From contig NZ_QJTK01000012.1 in assembly GCF_003217355.1 (NCBI RefSeq), positions 1 to 64,000 on the forward strand: a stretch of 64,000 bases of DNA, read 5' to 3'. The position numbers were made by a program, and so were the translations under genes. Positions 50,252 to 58,799 of the stretch are shown here, one piece after another (the first letter of the stretch is position 1; each line of letters opens with the position of its first letter). This stretch comes from Rhodobacter viridis. Its GTDB lineage: Bacteria; Pseudomonadota; Alphaproteobacteria; Rhodobacterales; Rhodobacteraceae. Under the pieces are notes generated by a model, which searched no databases, had not been told where the DNA came from, and was given only the letters and a program-made list of their open reading frames with translations.

Positions 50252-50325
50252 GCGGGTGTTGTGTAATGGTAAGACCCTAGCCTTCCAAGCTAGAGACACG
50301 GGTTCGATTCCCGTCACCCGCTCCA
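50252..50325 (+). tRNA. tRNA-Gly (anticodon TCC)
   Basis: A 74-nt cloverleaf. The acceptor stem GCGGGTG pairs with CACCCGC, the anticodon stem CTAGC/GCTAG encloses loop CTTCCAA with anticodon TCC (reads GGA), and the T arm is ACGGG-TTCGATT-CCCGT. The discriminator is T and CCA is encoded at 50323-50325. No integrated element is seen at its 3' end. Confidence 0.97.
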
Positions 50326-52978: not shown

Positions 52979-53050
52979 CGGGTCCCCGAAGCGTGGATAT
53001 CCCTGCGTGACACGACGACGCGGGGGATCGCAACAGCCCCGCGCGGCCCC

Positions 53051-53854
53051 TCAGGCATCCCGGGTCAGGATCCATTCGCTGGCGGGATCGGGCTGGAAGC
53101 GCCAGTTCCGCCGCGGCCCGGCCATGACGTTGAGGTAATACATCTCGAAGCCATAGGGGGCGCCGCAGGGGTGATGGCCGCGCGGGACGCAGACAACATC
53201 GCCATCCTTCACCGCCATCGTCTCGTCAAGGCTGCCGTCTTCGGTATAGACCCGCTGCACCCCCCAGCCCTGCGCCGGGTTGAGCCGGTGGTAATAGGTC
53301 TCCTCGAGATAGGTGATGCGGGGGAAGTCATCCTCGTCATGGCGGTGGCTCGGATAGGACGACCAATGACCCGCAGGCGTAAACACCTCGGTGACCAGCA
53401 GGCTGTCGCAATAATCCTCGTTTTCCATCGCGATGTTGTTGATGTGACGGGTGTTTCCGCCCTTCCCGCGCGGCGTGAGCGTGATCCCCTCCGGCCCGAT
53501 CCGGCGCGCAGGATGCCCGCCCTTGCCCGGCGCGGCACAGACGGCAATCGTGCAGTCGGTCTCGGCCACGGCCGACCAATCCTGCCCGTTCGGCACATAA
53601 AGACAATGCGGCGGGGTCTTCTCGAAGACATTCATCCGCTCGCCGAGCATGCCCCAATCCTGCCCGGCCGCGGTCAGATGCGCCTTGCCCTCGACCATGA
53701 CCAGGATCACCTCGTTGCCCCCGGTCGCCTCGGCCGTCCCCTCGCCCGCGCGCAGCCGGTAAAGCGAGAACCCCACATAGCGCCATCCCGCCGAGGCCGG
53801 GGTGATCTCATGCACCTTCCCATGCGCCCCGAAAGGCTTGCGCAGCAACGTCAT
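53051..53854 (-). CDS. iolB: 5-deoxy-glucuronate isomerase
   Basis: A 267-aa bicupin that converts 5-deoxy-glucuronate to 2-deoxy-5-keto-gluconate in myo-inositol breakdown. Family features are ITPASAGWRYVGFSLYRLRAGEG, the metal-site region HWSSYPSHRHDEDDFPRITYLEETYYHRLNPAQGWG and the C-terminal GDVVCVPRGHHPCGAPYGFEMYYLNVMAG. It is the last recognised iol gene of the operon. The gap to iolE holds one copy of the intergenic repeat. Confidence 0.96.
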   Translation of the reverse strand: MTLLRKPFGAHGKVHEITPASAGWRYVGFSLYRLRAGEGTAEATGGNEVILVMVEGKAHLTAAGQDWGMLGERMNVFEKTPPHCLYVPNGQDWSAVAETDCTIAVCAAPGKGGHPARRIGPEGITLTPRGKGGNTRHINNIAMENEDYCDSLLVTEVFTPAGHWSSYPSHRHDEDDFPRITYLEETYYHRLNPAQGWGVQRVYTEDGSLDETMAVKDGDVVCVPRGHHPCGAPYGFEMYYLNVMAGPRRNWRFQPDPASEWILTRDA

Positions 53855-53864
53855 CCCGTGTCCC

Positions 53865-53918
53865 TTTATCTTGCACTAAATACCTCGGATGGGGTCCGGA
53901 GAAGGCAGCGCCTTCCCC
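53865..53918. repeat. Intergenic repeat copy A (iolE/iolB junction)
   Basis: TTTATCTTGCACTAAATACCTCGG is followed by a GGTCC core and the hairpin GAAGGC-AGC-GCCTTC. The left block and the hairpin position align with copies at 54885 and 56826, while the stem sequence differs yet stays paired. Confidence 0.75.
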
Positions 53919-53939
53919 GTGTTTTGGCCCCGGCTTTCG

Positions 53940-54860
53940 TTACGAACAGCCGCAGCCGCACCCGGCATCGAGCCCCGCCGCCCGCGCCGCCGCCTTCAGC
54001 GACTTCAGCCCCAGCGACTGATACTGCAGCGGATTGCGCAGCTTCGGATCCTGCTCGGCCTCGATCACCAGCCAGCCGCTGTAATGCGCGCTCGCAAGGA
54101 TCCGCATCAGCGGCAGGAAGTCGATCGCCCCTTCGGGATCGCCCGGCACGGTGAAAGCCCCGGCCAGAACGCCCTGCAGGAAGGACAGATTCTCGGCCCG
54201 GACCCGGTCACAGATCGCGCGACGGATGTTCTTGGAATGGAAATGCGCAACGCGCCCCACATGCCGCGCCAGAACTTCCTCGGGGTTGCCGCCGCCAAAG
54301 GTGCAATGCCCGGCATCGAACAACAGGTGCGCATGCGGCCCGGTCGCGGCCATGAAGGCGTCGATTTCTTCCGGACTTTCGACCACGGTGCCCATATGGT
54401 GGTGATAAGCAAGCGTCACGCCCTCGGAGGCCAGATAGGCCGCAAAGGCCTCGATCTTCGCGCCAAAGGCCACCATCTCGTCAGCCGTCAGGCGCGGCCG
54501 CGCATTCACCGGCGTCGTCGGGCTGCCATGCACGGTGTTCGAGCATTCGCAGACGATGCAGACCTTGCAGCCGTTCTCCTTCAGCTTCGCCAGATGCCCC
54601 TGCACCGACTTGATCTCGTCCTCGACCGAGCCGACGAGCAGATTGGTCGAATACCAGCCCGAGACGAACTTCAGCCCATACGCCCCCAGCAGCGCCTTCA
54701 GCGCGACCGGATCCTCGGGCCAGCGGTGGCCGTTCTCGATACCGTCAAAGCCGATCTCGCGGCCCGCTTCGCGCAGGATCTGCTCGGTCGGAATATCGGC
54801 GCCGATCGTCTGATCGTCATCATTCGCCCAGGCGATGGGGTTCGTGCCGTAAAGGATCAT
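53940..54860 (-). CDS. iolE: Myo-inosose-2 dehydratase
   Basis: A 306-aa TIM-barrel enzyme (AP-endonuclease 2 fold) that dehydrates 2-keto-myo-inositol to the diketone. Matching segments are MILYGTNPIAWANDDDQTIGADIPTEQIL, FDGIENGHRWPEDP, LAYHHHMGTVVE, LLFDAGHCTFGG and GWLVIEAEQDP, which carry the metal ligands. GAGGAAAAG precedes the ATG. The last residues, DAGCGCGCS, are Cys/Gly-rich and unusual. The downstream gene is iolB. Confidence 0.95.
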   Translation of the reverse strand: MILYGTNPIAWANDDDQTIGADIPTEQILREAGREIGFDGIENGHRWPEDPVALKALLGAYGLKFVSGWYSTNLLVGSVEDEIKSVQGHLAKLKENGCKVCIVCECSNTVHGSPTTPVNARPRLTADEMVAFGAKIEAFAAYLASEGVTLAYHHHMGTVVESPEEIDAFMAATGPHAHLLFDAGHCTFGGGNPEEVLARHVGRVAHFHSKNIRRAICDRVRAENLSFLQGVLAGAFTVPGDPEGAIDFLPLMRILASAHYSGWLVIEAEQDPKLRNPLQYQSLGLKSLKAAARAAGLDAGCGCGCS

Positions 54861-54884
54861 CTTTTCCTCTTTTCCCGGGCCTTG

Positions 54885-54933
54885 TTTTTTCTTGGCCCAA
54901 ATACGCTGGGGGGTCCGGGGGCAAAGCCCCCGG
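54885..54933. repeat. Intergenic repeat copy B (iolD/iolE junction)
   Basis: A T-rich block ending in TCTTGGCCCAAATACGCTGG precedes GGGTCC and the hairpin CCGGGGGC-AAA-GCCCCCGG (54915-54922 with 54926-54933). It is aligned with copies A and C. Confidence 0.8.
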
Positions 54934-54941
54934 CCTTCGGT

Positions 54942-56783
54942 TCAGTTCACGACATTCTGCCGGGCGGCGGCCTTCACATAGCGCTCGCGCGCCGCCTCAA
55001 GCCGCGCAGGCCCGCCCACTTGCGGCACGGCCACATCCCACCAATGCCCGCCCGCGCCGGTGCCCGGCACCGGATCGGTGTCGATCAGGATCACGCTCGG
55101 GATCTTGCGCCCGCGCGCGGCGACGATCGCGGCTTCCAGATCGGCGATCGAGCCGACCTTCTCGGCATGCGCCCCCATCGAGGCCGCATGGGCGACGAAA
55201 TCGATCTGCGGCCCCTCTTCGATGCGGCAGTCCTTGTAAAGGTTGTTGAACTCGGCCCCGCCGCATTCCTGCTGCAGCCGGTTGATGCAGCCATAGCCAC
55301 GGTTGTCGGTCAGCACGATGGTGAAGGGCACATGACGCATCACCGCGGTGGCAAGCTCCGAATTCGCCATCATGTAGCTGCCATCACCGACGAAACAGAT
55401 CACCTCTTTCCCGGGGCGGGCGAGCGCAATCCCCAGCGCCCCCGCCACCTCGTAGCCCATGCAGGAATAGCCGTATTCCATGTGATAGCCGCCTGGCGCC
55501 GCCTGCCAAAGCACCTGCAGCGCCCCCGGCATCGTGCCCGCCGCGCACATCACGATGCTGTCCTTCGTCACCACCCGCTGCACCGCGCCGATCACCTGCG
55601 CATCCGAGGGCAGATTGTTCGCATCGCCTCGCGCGGGCGGCGCCGTCACCACCTTCACCGCAGCCTGCCAGGCCAGCCGCGAGGCCGCATCAAAGGCCGG
55701 GGCCTTGTGATCGCCAAGCGCCGCGGAGATCTTCTGCAAGCAGACCTTGGCATCGCCGACAAGCCCGACCGCCCCGTGCTTGAGCGCGTCATAGCCCGCA
55801 AGGTTGATGCTCACGAGCTTGCGCCCTTCGGCCCCGAAAACCGTCCATGAGCCGGTGGTGAAATCCTGAAACCGGGTGCCGACCCCCAGCACCAGATCGG
55901 CCTTGGCACAAAGCTCGTTGGCACAGGCCGAACCGGTCACCCCGGGCGAGCCGAAGTTGAACGCATCGTCCCAGCCATTCGCTCCCTTGCCCGCCTGGGT
56001 CTCGACAAAGGGAATGTTGTGGGCCGCTGCGAAGGCCGCCAGATCGGCCTCGGCACCCGAATAGATCACCCCGCCGCCCGCGACGATCACCGGGGCTTCG
56101 GCCGCCTTGATCAGCGCCACGACCTCGGCCAGTTCCTGCAGATCCGGCTCGGGGCGGCGGATGCGCCAGACCTTCGGCGCGAAGAACTCGACCGGATAGT
56201 CGAAAGCCTCGGCCTGCACGTCCTGACAGAAGGCGAGACAGACCGGGCCGCAATTGGCCGGATCGGTCATCACCGCGAAAGCGCGGGGCAGGGCGGTCAG
56301 CAGATGCTCGGGCCGCGAAATCCGGTCGAAATAGCGCACCACCGGGCGGAAGCAGTCATTGGCCGAAATCGTGCCGTCGTCGAAATCCTCGATCTGCTGC
56401 AGCACCGGATCGGGGCGGCGGTTGGCAAAGACATCGCCCGGGATGAAAAGCACGGGCAAGCGGTTCACATGGGCGAGCGCCGCCGCCGTCACCATGTTCG
56501 TCGCCCCCGGCCCGATCGAGGAGGTCACCGCCATCGCGCGCTTACGCTTCATCGTCTTCGCATAGGCAATCGCCGCATGGGCCATCGTCTGCTCGTTCTG
56601 CCCCCGCCAGGTCGGCAGCGCATCGCCGATGCCGTGCAAAGCCTCGCCGATCCCCGCCACGTTGCCGTGGCCGAAAATCGCCCAGACGCCTTCGAGGAAG
56701 CGCTCGCCTTCCTCGGTCATCTGCACCGAAAGCCAGCGCATCATCGCCTGCGCCGCCGTCAACCGGATCGTCTCACCCGCCAT
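54942..56783 (-). CDS. iolD: 3D-(3,5/4)-trihydroxycyclohexane-1,2-dione acylhydrolase
   Basis: A 613-aa thiamine-diphosphate enzyme that opens the inositol ring to give 5-deoxy-glucuronate. It has the usual PYR, central and PP domains: N-terminal TAAQAMMRWLSVQ, the conserved EGVWAIFGHGNVAGIGEAL, then GPGATNMVTAAALAHVNRLPVL. The ThDP/Mg motif is GDGSYMMANSELATAV...DNRGYGCINRLQQ. GGGAGAGG lies upstream. Its position and neighbours match iolD exactly. Confidence 0.97.
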   Translation of the reverse strand: MAGETIRLTAAQAMMRWLSVQMTEEGERFLEGVWAIFGHGNVAGIGEALHGIGDALPTWRGQNEQTMAHAAIAYAKTMKRKRAMAVTSSIGPGATNMVTAAALAHVNRLPVLFIPGDVFANRRPDPVLQQIEDFDDGTISANDCFRPVVRYFDRISRPEHLLTALPRAFAVMTDPANCGPVCLAFCQDVQAEAFDYPVEFFAPKVWRIRRPEPDLQELAEVVALIKAAEAPVIVAGGGVIYSGAEADLAAFAAAHNIPFVETQAGKGANGWDDAFNFGSPGVTGSACANELCAKADLVLGVGTRFQDFTTGSWTVFGAEGRKLVSINLAGYDALKHGAVGLVGDAKVCLQKISAALGDHKAPAFDAASRLAWQAAVKVVTAPPARGDANNLPSDAQVIGAVQRVVTKDSIVMCAAGTMPGALQVLWQAAPGGYHMEYGYSCMGYEVAGALGIALARPGKEVICFVGDGSYMMANSELATAVMRHVPFTIVLTDNRGYGCINRLQQECGGAEFNNLYKDCRIEEGPQIDFVAHAASMGAHAEKVGSIADLEAAIVAARGRKIPSVILIDTDPVPGTGAGGHWWDVAVPQVGGPARLEAARERYVKAAARQNVVN

Positions 56784-56825
56784 CTTTCGCCTCTCCCGGG
56801 ATCAGCGGGCCAGAACCCGCAACCC

Positions 56826-56873
56826 TTTCATCTTGCTTCAAATATCTCGGGGGTGTGGGGGCAGCGCCCCCAC
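56826..56873. repeat. Intergenic repeat copy C (iolC/iolD junction)
   Basis: TTTCATCTTGCTTCAAATAT then CTCGGGGGT precedes the hairpin GTGGGGGC-AGC-GCCCCCAC (56855-56862 with 56866-56873). It is the third aligned copy in the operon. Confidence 0.8.
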
Positions 56874-56882
56874 CCGCCCGTT

Positions 56883-58799
56883 TCACCGCGCCGCCACGTG
56901 CCCCCGCGCACCGACCCGCGCCCGGTCCCAGACCGTGCACAGCCGCGCATAGCGCCGCGCCATTTCCGCCACCGCTTCCGCATCGCCGAGGTCGCCCTCG
57001 AACCAGGCCCGCGCGACGACGCCAAAGATCGTGCGACCCACGGCAAAGCCCTTCACCAGCGGGAAGCCCGCGGCGATGGCGAAGCTTTCCGCCAGATCCT
57101 CCTCGGGCGCATCAAGGCCCAGCACGACGATGCCGCGCGTATGCGGGTCGTTTTCCTCGATGGCGGCGCAGGCCGCGGCCCAGGCAGCCCGCGTCGCCAT
57201 CGGTTCCAGCTTCCACCAGTCGGGGCAAACGCCCGCCGCGTAGAACTGCCGGATCAGCGTTGCCGTCGTGGTCTCGGTCACCGGACCGACCTTCGACGGG
57301 ATGATTTCCAGAAGGAATTCCAGACGGTTGCGCCGCGCCGCCGTGTAAAGACGCACCACCTCCGCCTCCTGCGCGCGGCGCAGATCGGGCGCGTCGTCAG
57401 GGTGGCAGAAGACGAGCACCTTCACCACATTCTCGCGCGCCCAGTTTTCCAGACCGCCGCAATCGGGGCCAAGCTCGGGCTCCAGCTCCAAGGGCCGCGA
57501 GCCCGGCCATTCGCAGGGCCGCCCGATCCAGAGCCCGGTTCCGCTCGCCGCATGCAGCGCCTTCCGGCCGATGCGGTTGTCGCACAGGATGCCGTAGCCG
57601 GGGCGTCCGCCCTGCACCTCGCGCGCGGCGGCCAGACACAGCTCCTTGAACCGGCTGCCCTTGTCGGCGGTGAAGCCGGGCAATTGCTCCAGCTGCATCC
57701 GGTGGTCGAAGGCAAAGACCCGCATCGTCGACCAATCGCCCTTGCGGGTCGTCGCCCAATGCACCTGCTCAAGCTCGGCATCATTGCGCAGATCCGGCCG
57801 CACCACCCCGCGCCGCAGGAAGAACTTCAGCTCCTCGAGGCTCGGATAGGCCGGAGTGCAGCCGTGACGGCTGACCGCGAAAGCCCCGCAGGCATTGGCA
57901 TATTCGAGCGCGCGCGGCCAGGCCTCACCATCGAGCCAGCCCTTCAGAAGCCCCGAAAAGAACCCGTCCCCGGCGCCGAGCACGTTGAAGACCTCGATCG
58001 GGAAACCGGGGCCGCTTTGGCCGTCATCGAGGCTGTCGGGAATGGTTCCCTCGAAGGCCACCGCCCCCTTGGCGCCGCGCTTGCAAACGAGCGTCGCGTT
58101 CGACACCGCCCGCACTGCCCGCAAAGCCGCGATCGTGTCGGTGCTGCCGCCCGCGATATGGAATTCCTCTTCCGTGCCGACGATCAGATCGAAAAGATGC
58201 AGCGTGCCCAGAAGCTTCGCCGTCACCTTGGCGCTTTCGACAAAGCGGCTTTCGCCCGCGCCATGCCCCGCCACGCCCCAGAGGTTCGGCCGGTAATCGA
58301 TATCGAGCGCCGTCTTCGCCCCATGCTTGCGCGCCAGGGCCAGCGCCTTCAGCACGGCGGCTTCGGTGCGCGGGTGCGACAGATGCGTGCCGGTGGCCAG
58401 AACCGAGCGGGCTTCGGCGATGAACCCCTCCTCGATATCGGCCTCGCAAAGCGCCATGTCGGCGCAATTCTCGCGGTAGAAGATCAGCGGGAACTGCTCC
58501 TCGTCGCGGATGCCGAGGATGACGAGCGCCGTCAGCCGCTCGGGATCGGTCTTCACGCCGCGCACATCGACGCCCTCGCGCCCGAGCTGCTCGCGGATGA
58601 AGCGCCCCATATGTTCGTCGCCCACCCGCGTGATCAAGGCCGAGCGCAGCCCCAGACGCGCGGTGCCGCAGGCGATATTCGTCGGCGAGCCGCCGATGTA
58701 TTTCTGAAACGACCCCATATCCTCGAGCCGCCCGCCCACTTGCGTCCCGTAAAGGTCCACGCCAGCCCGGCCTATGGTGATCACATCAAGGGTCTTCAT
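56883..58799 (-). CDS. iolC: 5-dehydro-2-deoxygluconokinase fused to DUF2090 aldolase-like domain
   Basis: A 638-aa fusion. Residues 1 to about 330 form a PfkB-type kinase: LDVITIGRAGVDLYG, GGSPTNIACGTARLG and the catalytic FNVLGAGDGFFSGLLKGW. Residues about 340-638 form the DUF2090 TIM-barrel domain, with VFAFDHRMQLEQLP, GYGILCDNRIGRKAL, PSKVGPVTETTTATLIRQFYAAGVCPDWWKLEP and GFAVGRTIFGV. The fusion probably performs phosphorylation of 2-deoxy-5-keto-gluconate and the following aldol cleavage (the IolC and IolJ steps). The ribosome site is weak (GACCGAAAG). No separate iolJ was seen. Confidence 0.94.
   Translation of the reverse strand: MKTLDVITIGRAGVDLYGTQVGGRLEDMGSFQKYIGGSPTNIACGTARLGLRSALITRVGDEHMGRFIREQLGREGVDVRGVKTDPERLTALVILGIRDEEQFPLIFYRENCADMALCEADIEEGFIAEARSVLATGTHLSHPRTEAAVLKALALARKHGAKTALDIDYRPNLWGVAGHGAGESRFVESAKVTAKLLGTLHLFDLIVGTEEEFHIAGGSTDTIAALRAVRAVSNATLVCKRGAKGAVAFEGTIPDSLDDGQSGPGFPIEVFNVLGAGDGFFSGLLKGWLDGEAWPRALEYANACGAFAVSRHGCTPAYPSLEELKFFLRRGVVRPDLRNDAELEQVHWATTRKGDWSTMRVFAFDHRMQLEQLPGFTADKGSRFKELCLAAAREVQGGRPGYGILCDNRIGRKALHAASGTGLWIGRPCEWPGSRPLELEPELGPDCGGLENWARENVVKVLVFCHPDDAPDLRRAQEAEVVRLYTAARRNRLEFLLEIIPSKVGPVTETTTATLIRQFYAAGVCPDWWKLEPMATRAAWAAACAAIEENDPHTRGIVVLGLDAPEEDLAESFAIAAGFPLVKGFAVGRTIFGVVARAWFEGDLGDAEAVAEMARRYARLCTVWDRARVGARGHVAAR

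Follow-up and report, generated by a model that had tools for sequence, protein, structure and literature searches.

The iolC, iolD, iolE and iolB genes of Rhodobacter viridis are separated by three copies of a short repeat in the 64,000-nucleotide stretch analyzed here (positions 1 to 64,000 of contig NZ_QJTK01000012.1; hereafter the window). We conclude that this element is probably a dispersed intrastrand-triplex DNA repeat of the Rhodobacteraceae, with a capped class I fold; together with an adjacent AAATAY motif, this fold may serve as a signal read by a factor. The repeat unit measures ca. 45–60 bp and lies downstream of stop codons, frequently in head-to-head pairs. Comparison across copies and genomes supports the hairpin, the register of the third strand, its base code, and the cap pair. 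An initial annotation of this DNA had reported three related elements with a covarying hairpin, one at each of the junctions iolC-D, D-E, and E-B; re-reading of the sequence confirms these positions and the hairpin, while a third run whose length and interruptions follow the stem had been missed.

On the strand complementary to the mRNA, the general unit consists of AAATAY, a cap, a G run (the third strand), a linker, a purine arm, a loop, and a pyrimidine arm. In the iol copies this is the + strand, which reads T-rich tail, CTTG, four nucleotides, AAATAY, G-rich run, and hairpin; in the mRNA the order is reversed and the hairpin comes first, shortly 3' of the stop codon. The C run found 3' of the hairpin in the mRNA sense is thus the + strand G run, the mirror image of the purine arm. 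We propose that the G-rich strand, which in the iol copies is the complement of the upstream mRNA, would fold back when single-stranded, i.e., during replication or behind RNA polymerase. Purine arm and pyrimidine arm would pair as a hairpin, the 5' G run would lie antiparallel in its major groove as a reverse-Hoogsteen third strand (G.G-C, A.A-T, and T.A-T triplets), and the triplex would be capped by pairing of the hairpin loop with one or more bases immediately preceding the third run.

Chance occurrence of the repeat is excluded because a strict search pattern matched 47 times and a looser one 124 times in the 3.87-Mb genome, while the reversed-pattern controls gave 0 matches for both. The short motif alone, with one mismatch allowed, was found six times in the window (mean of 2.36 in shuffled sequence, with 7 of 100 shuffles reaching six), a count that is less telling than the genome-wide patterns. 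The genome search proposed with the initial annotation was run using a covariance model built from 37 copies and returned at least 146 matches in R. viridis itself. Altogether, the model matched in 26 of the 41 genomes searched, comprising all 18 of the genus (37 to at least 146 matches each), six of seven from other genera of the family, and two of 16 from other families (with 1 and 7 matches). When 149 genomes drawn from the order were searched with a pattern, 56 matched and 11 gave a single control match. A dispersed repeat with selected structure at gene junctions is supported in many genomes of the family, and the element does occur at the iol junctions, though with 124 copies across the genome it is not specific to them. 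Three congeners with iolE orthologs at 79–82 per cent and a conserved iolD-E-B order have no element at the iolD-E and iolE-B junctions, the two that could be checked, so it has been gained or lost there. An iol-specific regulatory RNA is ruled out by this absence together with the genome-wide copies.

The length of the third run follows that of the stem. In R. viridis, 46 of the 50 parsed short-linker copies have a third run as long as each of the two stem runs, where shuffling gives a mean of 25.8 such copies and at most 37; among long-linker copies the lengths agree in 34 of 46. Arms with an interruption decide between models because a competing hairpin predicts a direct register of the third run and a triplex predicts a mirror register. 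Searches of 296 genomes with either pattern gave two control matches each. The mirror pattern matched in 34 genomes, with asymmetric cases in many genera among the matches listed; the direct-repeat pattern gave 39 matches in 22 genomes and not one asymmetric direct case, for arms with A two or three Gs from the linker, the only forms that it covers. A competing hairpin or attenuator, which predicts direct-register third runs, was rejected because none were found, either with the direct-repeat pattern for the arm forms that it covers or among the parsed units described next.

When 57 interrupted units were parsed with neither count fixed, the linker-side numbers of Gs in third run and stem were (3,3) in 36, (4,4) in 20, and (5,3) in one, i.e., equal in 56 units, and the loop side was equal in 54. 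Thirty-six of these units come from loci found by the mirror or direct patterns, and the remaining 21 from loci, those of R. viridis included, that were not selected with both runs fixed; the latter agree on both sides in 21 of 21. A further search that left the third run free covered 394 genomes of the family and gave 85 matches in 49 of them, with three control matches. Of the 80 matches listed, 68 have both an interrupted arm and a third run; in these units the register is kept on the linker side in 68 of 68 and on the loop side in 64 of 68. By both sets of counts, a third strand stands in the register of an intrastrand DNA triplex on a homopurine stem. The 12 rows left out by the parser were inspected one by one: ten are hairpins interrupted by C-G (nine) or T-A (one), apparently by chance, and two, from one genome, have an A-T arm with a third run present and a linker of four nucleotides. 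An uninterrupted third run beside an A-T arm does not occur among these 12. Offset-free scoring of the register, which produced many ties and in which the misparsed units L008 and L199 favor the antiparallel register, has been superseded by the linker- and loop-side counts; for copy 1 at the iolE-B junction, this noisy scoring gave 7 of 8 positions for the mirror and 5 of 8 for the competing hairpin, each at its best offset.

Joint change of all three strands can be followed at one orthologous site (L090/L148), where all three read GGGAGGG in R. viridis. At sites whose flanks match, two congeners (L142 and L144) carry GGGGAGGG with the third run GGGTGGGG (+ strand letters): compared with the R. 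viridis site, each of the three strands is one base longer, and the interruption stays in register and has changed from A to T. The site of a third congener (L143) has the same third run and a pyrimidine arm that has changed further.

The interruptions also follow a base code. Among the listed matches, the arm interruption in the 68 units is A-T in 64, A.G in three, and C.T in one, with no T-A and no C-G. This purine-side rule points to a triplex because a hairpin alone is indifferent to which side holds the purine. The third-run base facing the 64 A-T pairs is A in 48 (31 genomes), T in 15 (11 genomes), C in one, and never G, and a separate search of 276 genomes (41 matches in 18 of them) gave A in 32 and T in nine, with neither G nor C. 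In these overlapping sets, 63 of 64 and 41 of 41 facing bases thus obey the purine-motif triplet code (G.G-C, A.A-T, T.A-T). An earlier stem-based search had returned 20 rows, nine of them judged to be units of this kind, with A facing in seven, T in one, and C in one. According to parts of Holder et al. 2015 (PMC4666352), the purine motif uses A(T)AT and GGC triplets and cannot form in RNA, and the pyrimidine motif does occur in RNA. Opposite A-T, the purine motif admits A as well as T, and T alone suits the pyrimidine motif. In the mRNA reading, 15 of the 64 facing bases would form no triplet. Because the purine motif takes either A or T and does not form in RNA, the base code favors DNA rather than RNA as the selected form, short of proof. 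The stem mismatches, which are few and partly stem from misparsed hairpins, show no excess of G.U in the mRNA sense.

The loop covaries with the base that immediately precedes the third run. For 85 five-base C..G loops, the combination of the loop's middle base with this preceding base is G-C in 71, A-T in eight, T-C in five, and C-C in one; in the five T-C cases the loop is CATCG or CATTG, and a second hairpin seems to have been mistaken for the first. The G-C/A-T part alone gives a Fisher p of 3.8e-11, though such values overstate significance because the copies are related. Longer loops come with longer caps: CAC with TGTGAAA, CGC with CGCGAAG or TGCGAAA, and TGC with TGCAAAA, the last in two copies of genome G137, independently of G037. 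Copy 2 at the iolD-E junction has T in the cap and A in the loop, the other covarying combination besides C and G, and its third run exceeds the stem run by one base. An H-type RNA pseudoknot fits the cap pairing but, as the sole explanation, is disfavored by the third-strand code and the placement in both orientations.

For the placement of the repeat, 129 distinct R. viridis elements were collected from stretches around copies; genes there were predicted by a script whose training set was six window genes, including four iol genes. Only one of the 129 lies inside a called gene. Seventy-two form 36 head-to-head pairs, seven have a degenerate partner, and 50 are single. Junctions with elements are convergent in 44 cases, tandem in 43, and divergent in five (21, 123, and 36, respectively, for junctions without elements at the same loci), and 41 of the 72 paired copies sit between convergent genes. 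The single copies are found at convergent junctions (21), at tandem junctions with the hairpin first in the mRNA sense (17) or reversed (nine), and at divergent ones (three); in the nine reversed copies, the tail is 0–17 nucleotides from a neighboring gene end in six and 58–114 nucleotides in three. Within pairs, the RTATTT motifs start 46–79 nucleotides apart. In a long form of the element, the linker that joins the pyrimidine arm to the third run is replaced by a second hairpin, variable in sequence and conserved in its pairing; 39 of the 50 long forms in this genome (e.g., L012, L080, and L099) belong to head-to-head pairs. The 36 pairs comprise 13 long-short, nine long-long, and one short-short combination and 13 with an unparsed member. 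Three free bases are identical between paired arms in seven of 36 pairs (2.2 expected), which may reflect quasipalindrome correction or selection. At four loci (L009, L030, L081, and L111), the tails of a head-to-head pair enclose a classical GC stem with a T run.

Two subfamilies in R. viridis covary over a distance, combining (with tails in the mRNA sense) CTTGG and ACGC with an AAGAA/AAAAA tail or CTTGC and AYCYC with an ATAAA/ATGAA tail. In other genera, CTTG is often replaced, and a purine-rich AAGAAG-like tail (mRNA sense) is common. The conservation of AAATAY is partly by construction because this motif was fixed in the search patterns. The heads of the element seem modular. Type-G partner arms at six R. 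viridis loci (L011, L051, L071, L072, L102, and L108) have an AAGGGC-like head and no such hairpin beside RTATTT. A different head, GCCTCCGGCGGG-like in the mRNA sense, sits directly on the same RTATTT without a triplex hairpin at L001 and L040 of R. viridis, and heads of this kind are also found in genomes G057, G019, G224, G023, G293, G400, G106, and G488.

Several observations weigh against a triplex-forming DNA repeat. Copies within one genome are not independent, and most have uninterrupted G runs, in which the third run is indistinguishable from a length-matched G run. The parser for free third runs accepts a run only if it contains a non-G letter and has 3–4 Gs toward the linker. C stands opposite A in G050 (stem-based search) and in G487 (free-third-run search), four of the 68 units have mispaired arms, and units L300, L160, L185, L201, L203, L210, and L233 are misfits. 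Three of 20 regions from other genera (L122, L124, and L126) have no G-run hairpin of this kind, and 20 of the 129 R. viridis copies have no parsed hairpin form, some of them with quite different heads. On the choice of nucleic acid, 48 of the 64 facing bases would also fit a pyrimidine-motif RNA triplex in the mRNA sense and only 15 of 64 (11 genomes) argue for DNA, while single tandem copies lean to the mRNA sense (17 vs. 9). No transposase or binding factor has been identified, in a search that was aimed at Y1 transposases and not at other transposase families. Finally, the comparable E. coli repeats adopt their fold in vitro, but a stable triplex did not show in footprinting carried out in vivo (parts of PMC4666352).

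Among the alternatives, an RNA element fares best and is still unlikely. The hairpin would follow the stop codon, and the C-rich run would turn back to form a third strand of the pyrimidine motif. RNase E would cut the adjacent AU-rich RUAUUU, which we take to match the RN|WUU consensus, so that the 3' end is protected and the next gene uncoupled. Hairpin-first copies, mostly near stop codons, make up 17 of the 26 single tandem copies, T in the C-rich run opposite a stem A (48 of 64) satisfies the pyrimidine code of a motif that occurs in RNA (parts of PMC4666352), and RNase E of R. sphaeroides favors AU-rich sites (parts of PMC6238624). However, 15 of 64 units have an A in the C-rich run, which makes no pyrimidine-motif triplet, nine of the 26 copies are reversed, the few stem mismatches show no preference for G.U in the mRNA sense, and pyrimidine-motif G/C triplexes need acid pH, as stated for TM_ECO in parts of PMC4666352. 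The RNA element acting on mRNA processing suggested by the initial annotation is thus not supported: the repeat is not operon-specific, 72 of 129 copies are in head-to-head pairs, both orientations occur, and the code is that of the purine motif. Affiliation with a known RNA family was likewise rejected, since Rfam returned nothing but a tRNA above gathering score in the window and only five weak matches, all below it, in eight loci with copies. A survey of structured RNAs in 26 genomes (parts of PMC8632094) names Rhodobacterales motifs at cco and cysS genes, and our literature search, limited to open-licence papers, recognized no description of this element.

Bidirectional terminators or insulators between convergent genes, with single copies as remnants, are quite improbable. 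The excess of convergent junctions and the 36 head-to-head pairs, some enclosing the GC stem with T run mentioned above, speak for this explanation. Between positions 53000 and 57000, however, no intrinsic terminator (GC stem with T run) lies on the - strand in the direction of the genes and the only one is on the + strand at copy 1, the iol copies are 10–43 nucleotides from the next start codon, and the E. coli relatives in kind have no terminator activity (parts of PMC4666352).

A mobile element of the REP/RAYT or another single-strand transposon kind, whose hairpin would be the transposase signal and whose third run would be incidental, is very improbable. Dispersal, head-to-head pairing, and absence from orthologous junctions agree with it, but register and base code indicate that the third run is not incidental, and no Y1 transposase (PF01797) was detected in R. 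viridis or 15 congeners. The PF01797 search covered 25 genomes, of which three matched, all from other families, and none of the 16 of the genus, with the model also matching five of 14 controls; this refutes a Y1/RAYT enzyme acting from within those 16 genomes, while other transposase families were not searched for. A viral collection contained a single contig (L338) matching the strict pattern, so spread by phages was rejected. Similar stretches occur in 16 plasmid records (12 from Paracoccus, three from Sagittula, and one from Fuscovulum), without annotation in 14 of the 15 listed.

An ordinary dispersed hairpin whose equal run lengths reflect common descent is scarcely credible: most copies are indeed plain G5/C5/C5 and alike, but duplication yields direct or inverted repeats rather than mirror ones, tens of genomes show the mirror register together with the purine rule and the A/T code, and the counts from the 68 units refute it unless very few ancestral copies underlie them.

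Returning to the triplex-forming DNA repeat, the fold together with the adjacent AAATAY might be the signal for a factor that copies or keeps the element, and the element might settle behind stop codons because it disturbs little there. An effect on iol expression would be secondary, and the element may have an additional RNA effect on iol mRNA. Only tentatively do we suggest that a capped DNA triple helix, not RNA, is under selection across the Rhodobacteraceae as a functional non-B DNA signal at gene ends that would be read with AAATAY by a dedicated protein spreading or using this signal.

REP/BIME elements with their RAYT transposases are dispersed short intergenic hairpins, often in inverted pairs, and resemble the repeat in these respects; the latter differs by its third strand and by the lack of a Y1 transposase in the 16 genus genomes searched. 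The uptake sequences of Neisseria and Haemophilus also occur in many copies and as inverted pairs at gene ends, comparable to the head-to-head pairs behind convergent genes described here, but the unit of our repeat is much longer and structured. The intercistronic hairpin of the R. capsulatus puf operon, processed with RNase E (cited in PMC6238624, parts of which we draw on), similarly lies between genes of one transcript but is described there for one operon and not as a repeat family.

The nearest known kind is BoxC, also called PIT or TM_ECO, of E. coli, i.e., intergenic purine-motif intrastrand triplex repeats that are stable in vitro and have no promoter or terminator activity (Holder et al. 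2015, parts of PMC4666352). Both are intergenic (one of 129 copies in a called gene here) and G/C-rich, with a purine-motif intrastrand triplex (probable in ours), tens to hundreds of copies, some inverted pairs (36 here) of two sub-forms, and no tie to phages. Our repeat resembles such a motif and is, judging from its strand order, not a TM_ECO: BoxC/PIT/TM_ECO is class II and this repeat class I, with the third strand 5', then purine and then pyrimidine. The TM_ECO pattern CCCTCNCCC N3-6 GGGNGAGGG N3 GGGNGAGGG had 0 matches in all collected loci. Peculiar to our repeat are its sequence, the cap pair, AAATAY, the tail, placement after stop codons, and compensatory changes in three strands. 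PMC4666352 lists Rhodospirillum photometricum as one of the genomes rich in G/C triplex motifs, and its main text mentions neither Rhodobacter, Paracoccus, or Roseobacter nor alphaproteobacteria; its stem limit of six nucleotides would miss the common five-nucleotide units of this repeat.

Whether bacterial triplex-forming repeats matter as triplexes is a question on which the E. coli ones gave no clear in vivo footprint (parts of PMC4666352). The triplex shape is known in bacteria, and here it has apparently been preserved by evolution: across tens of genomes, changes in the three strands are coordinated and obey a purine-motif code, and the cap covaries, which suggests that the fold itself is kept. 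This comparative signal makes the triplex question testable in Rhodobacter and Paracoccus, and it bears on the organization of gene 3' ends and convergent gene pairs in this large family.

Table 1. Coordinates of the iol genes, their spacers, and the three repeat copies in the window, with the nearby tRNA gene.
Feature	Position	Strand	Details
iolB	53051..53854	-	TIGR04378
iolE	53940..54860	-	TIGR04379
iolD	54942..56783	-	TIGR04377
iolC, 5-dehydro-2-deoxygluconokinase fused to aldolase	56883..58799	-	NF047869, TIGR04382
iolE-iolB spacer	53855-53939		holds copy 1
iolD-iolE spacer	54861-54941		holds copy 2
iolC-iolD spacer	56784-56882		holds copy 3
Copy 1 (iolE-iolB)	53870..53918	+	CTTG 53870-53873, AAATAC 53878-53883, cap CTC 53884-53886
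Copy 1 T-rich tail TTTAT	53865..53869	+	type-C subfamily
Copy 1 third run GGATGGGG	53887-53894	+	then linker TCC 53895-53897
Copy 1 hairpin		+	purine arm GGAGAAGGC 53898-53906, loop AGC 53907-53909, pyrimidine arm GCCTTCCCC 53910-53918
Copy 2 (iolD-iolE)	54891..54931	+	CTTG 54891-54894, AAATAC 54899-54904, cap GCT 54905-54907
Copy 2 T-rich tail TTTTTT	54885..54890	+	type-G subfamily
Copy 2 third run GGGGGG	54908-54913	+	then linker TCC 54914-54916
Copy 2 hairpin		+	arm GGGGGC 54917-54922, loop AAA 54923-54925, arm GCCCCC 54926-54931
Copy 3 (iolC-iolD)	56832..56871	+	CTTG 56832-56835, AAATAT 56840-56845, cap CTC 56846-56848
Copy 3 T-rich tail TTTCAT	56826..56831	+	type-C subfamily
Copy 3 third run GGGGG	56849-56853	+	then linker TGT 56854-56856
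Copy 3 hairpin		+	arm GGGGGC 56857-56862, loop AGC 56863-56865, arm GCCCCC 56866-56871
tRNA gene	50252-50322	+	Rfam RF00005

Details of the three iol copies agree largely with what had been read from them at first (Table 1). NCBIfam assigns the same iol names to all four genes on the - strand, and the + strand stems are as previously given (GAAGGC/GCCTTC, CCGGGGGC/GCCCCCGG, and GTGGGGGC/GCCCCCAC). These stems are fully paired, but the longer, 9-bp stem of copy 1 contains one A.C mismatch on the + strand, which is G.U in the mRNA. Similarly, the motif TTT-N-TCTTG described as shared by the copies is not exact in copy 3, which reads TTTCATCTTG. The covariance model matches copy 3 on the - strand at 56827-56876 with an E value of 1.6e-16.

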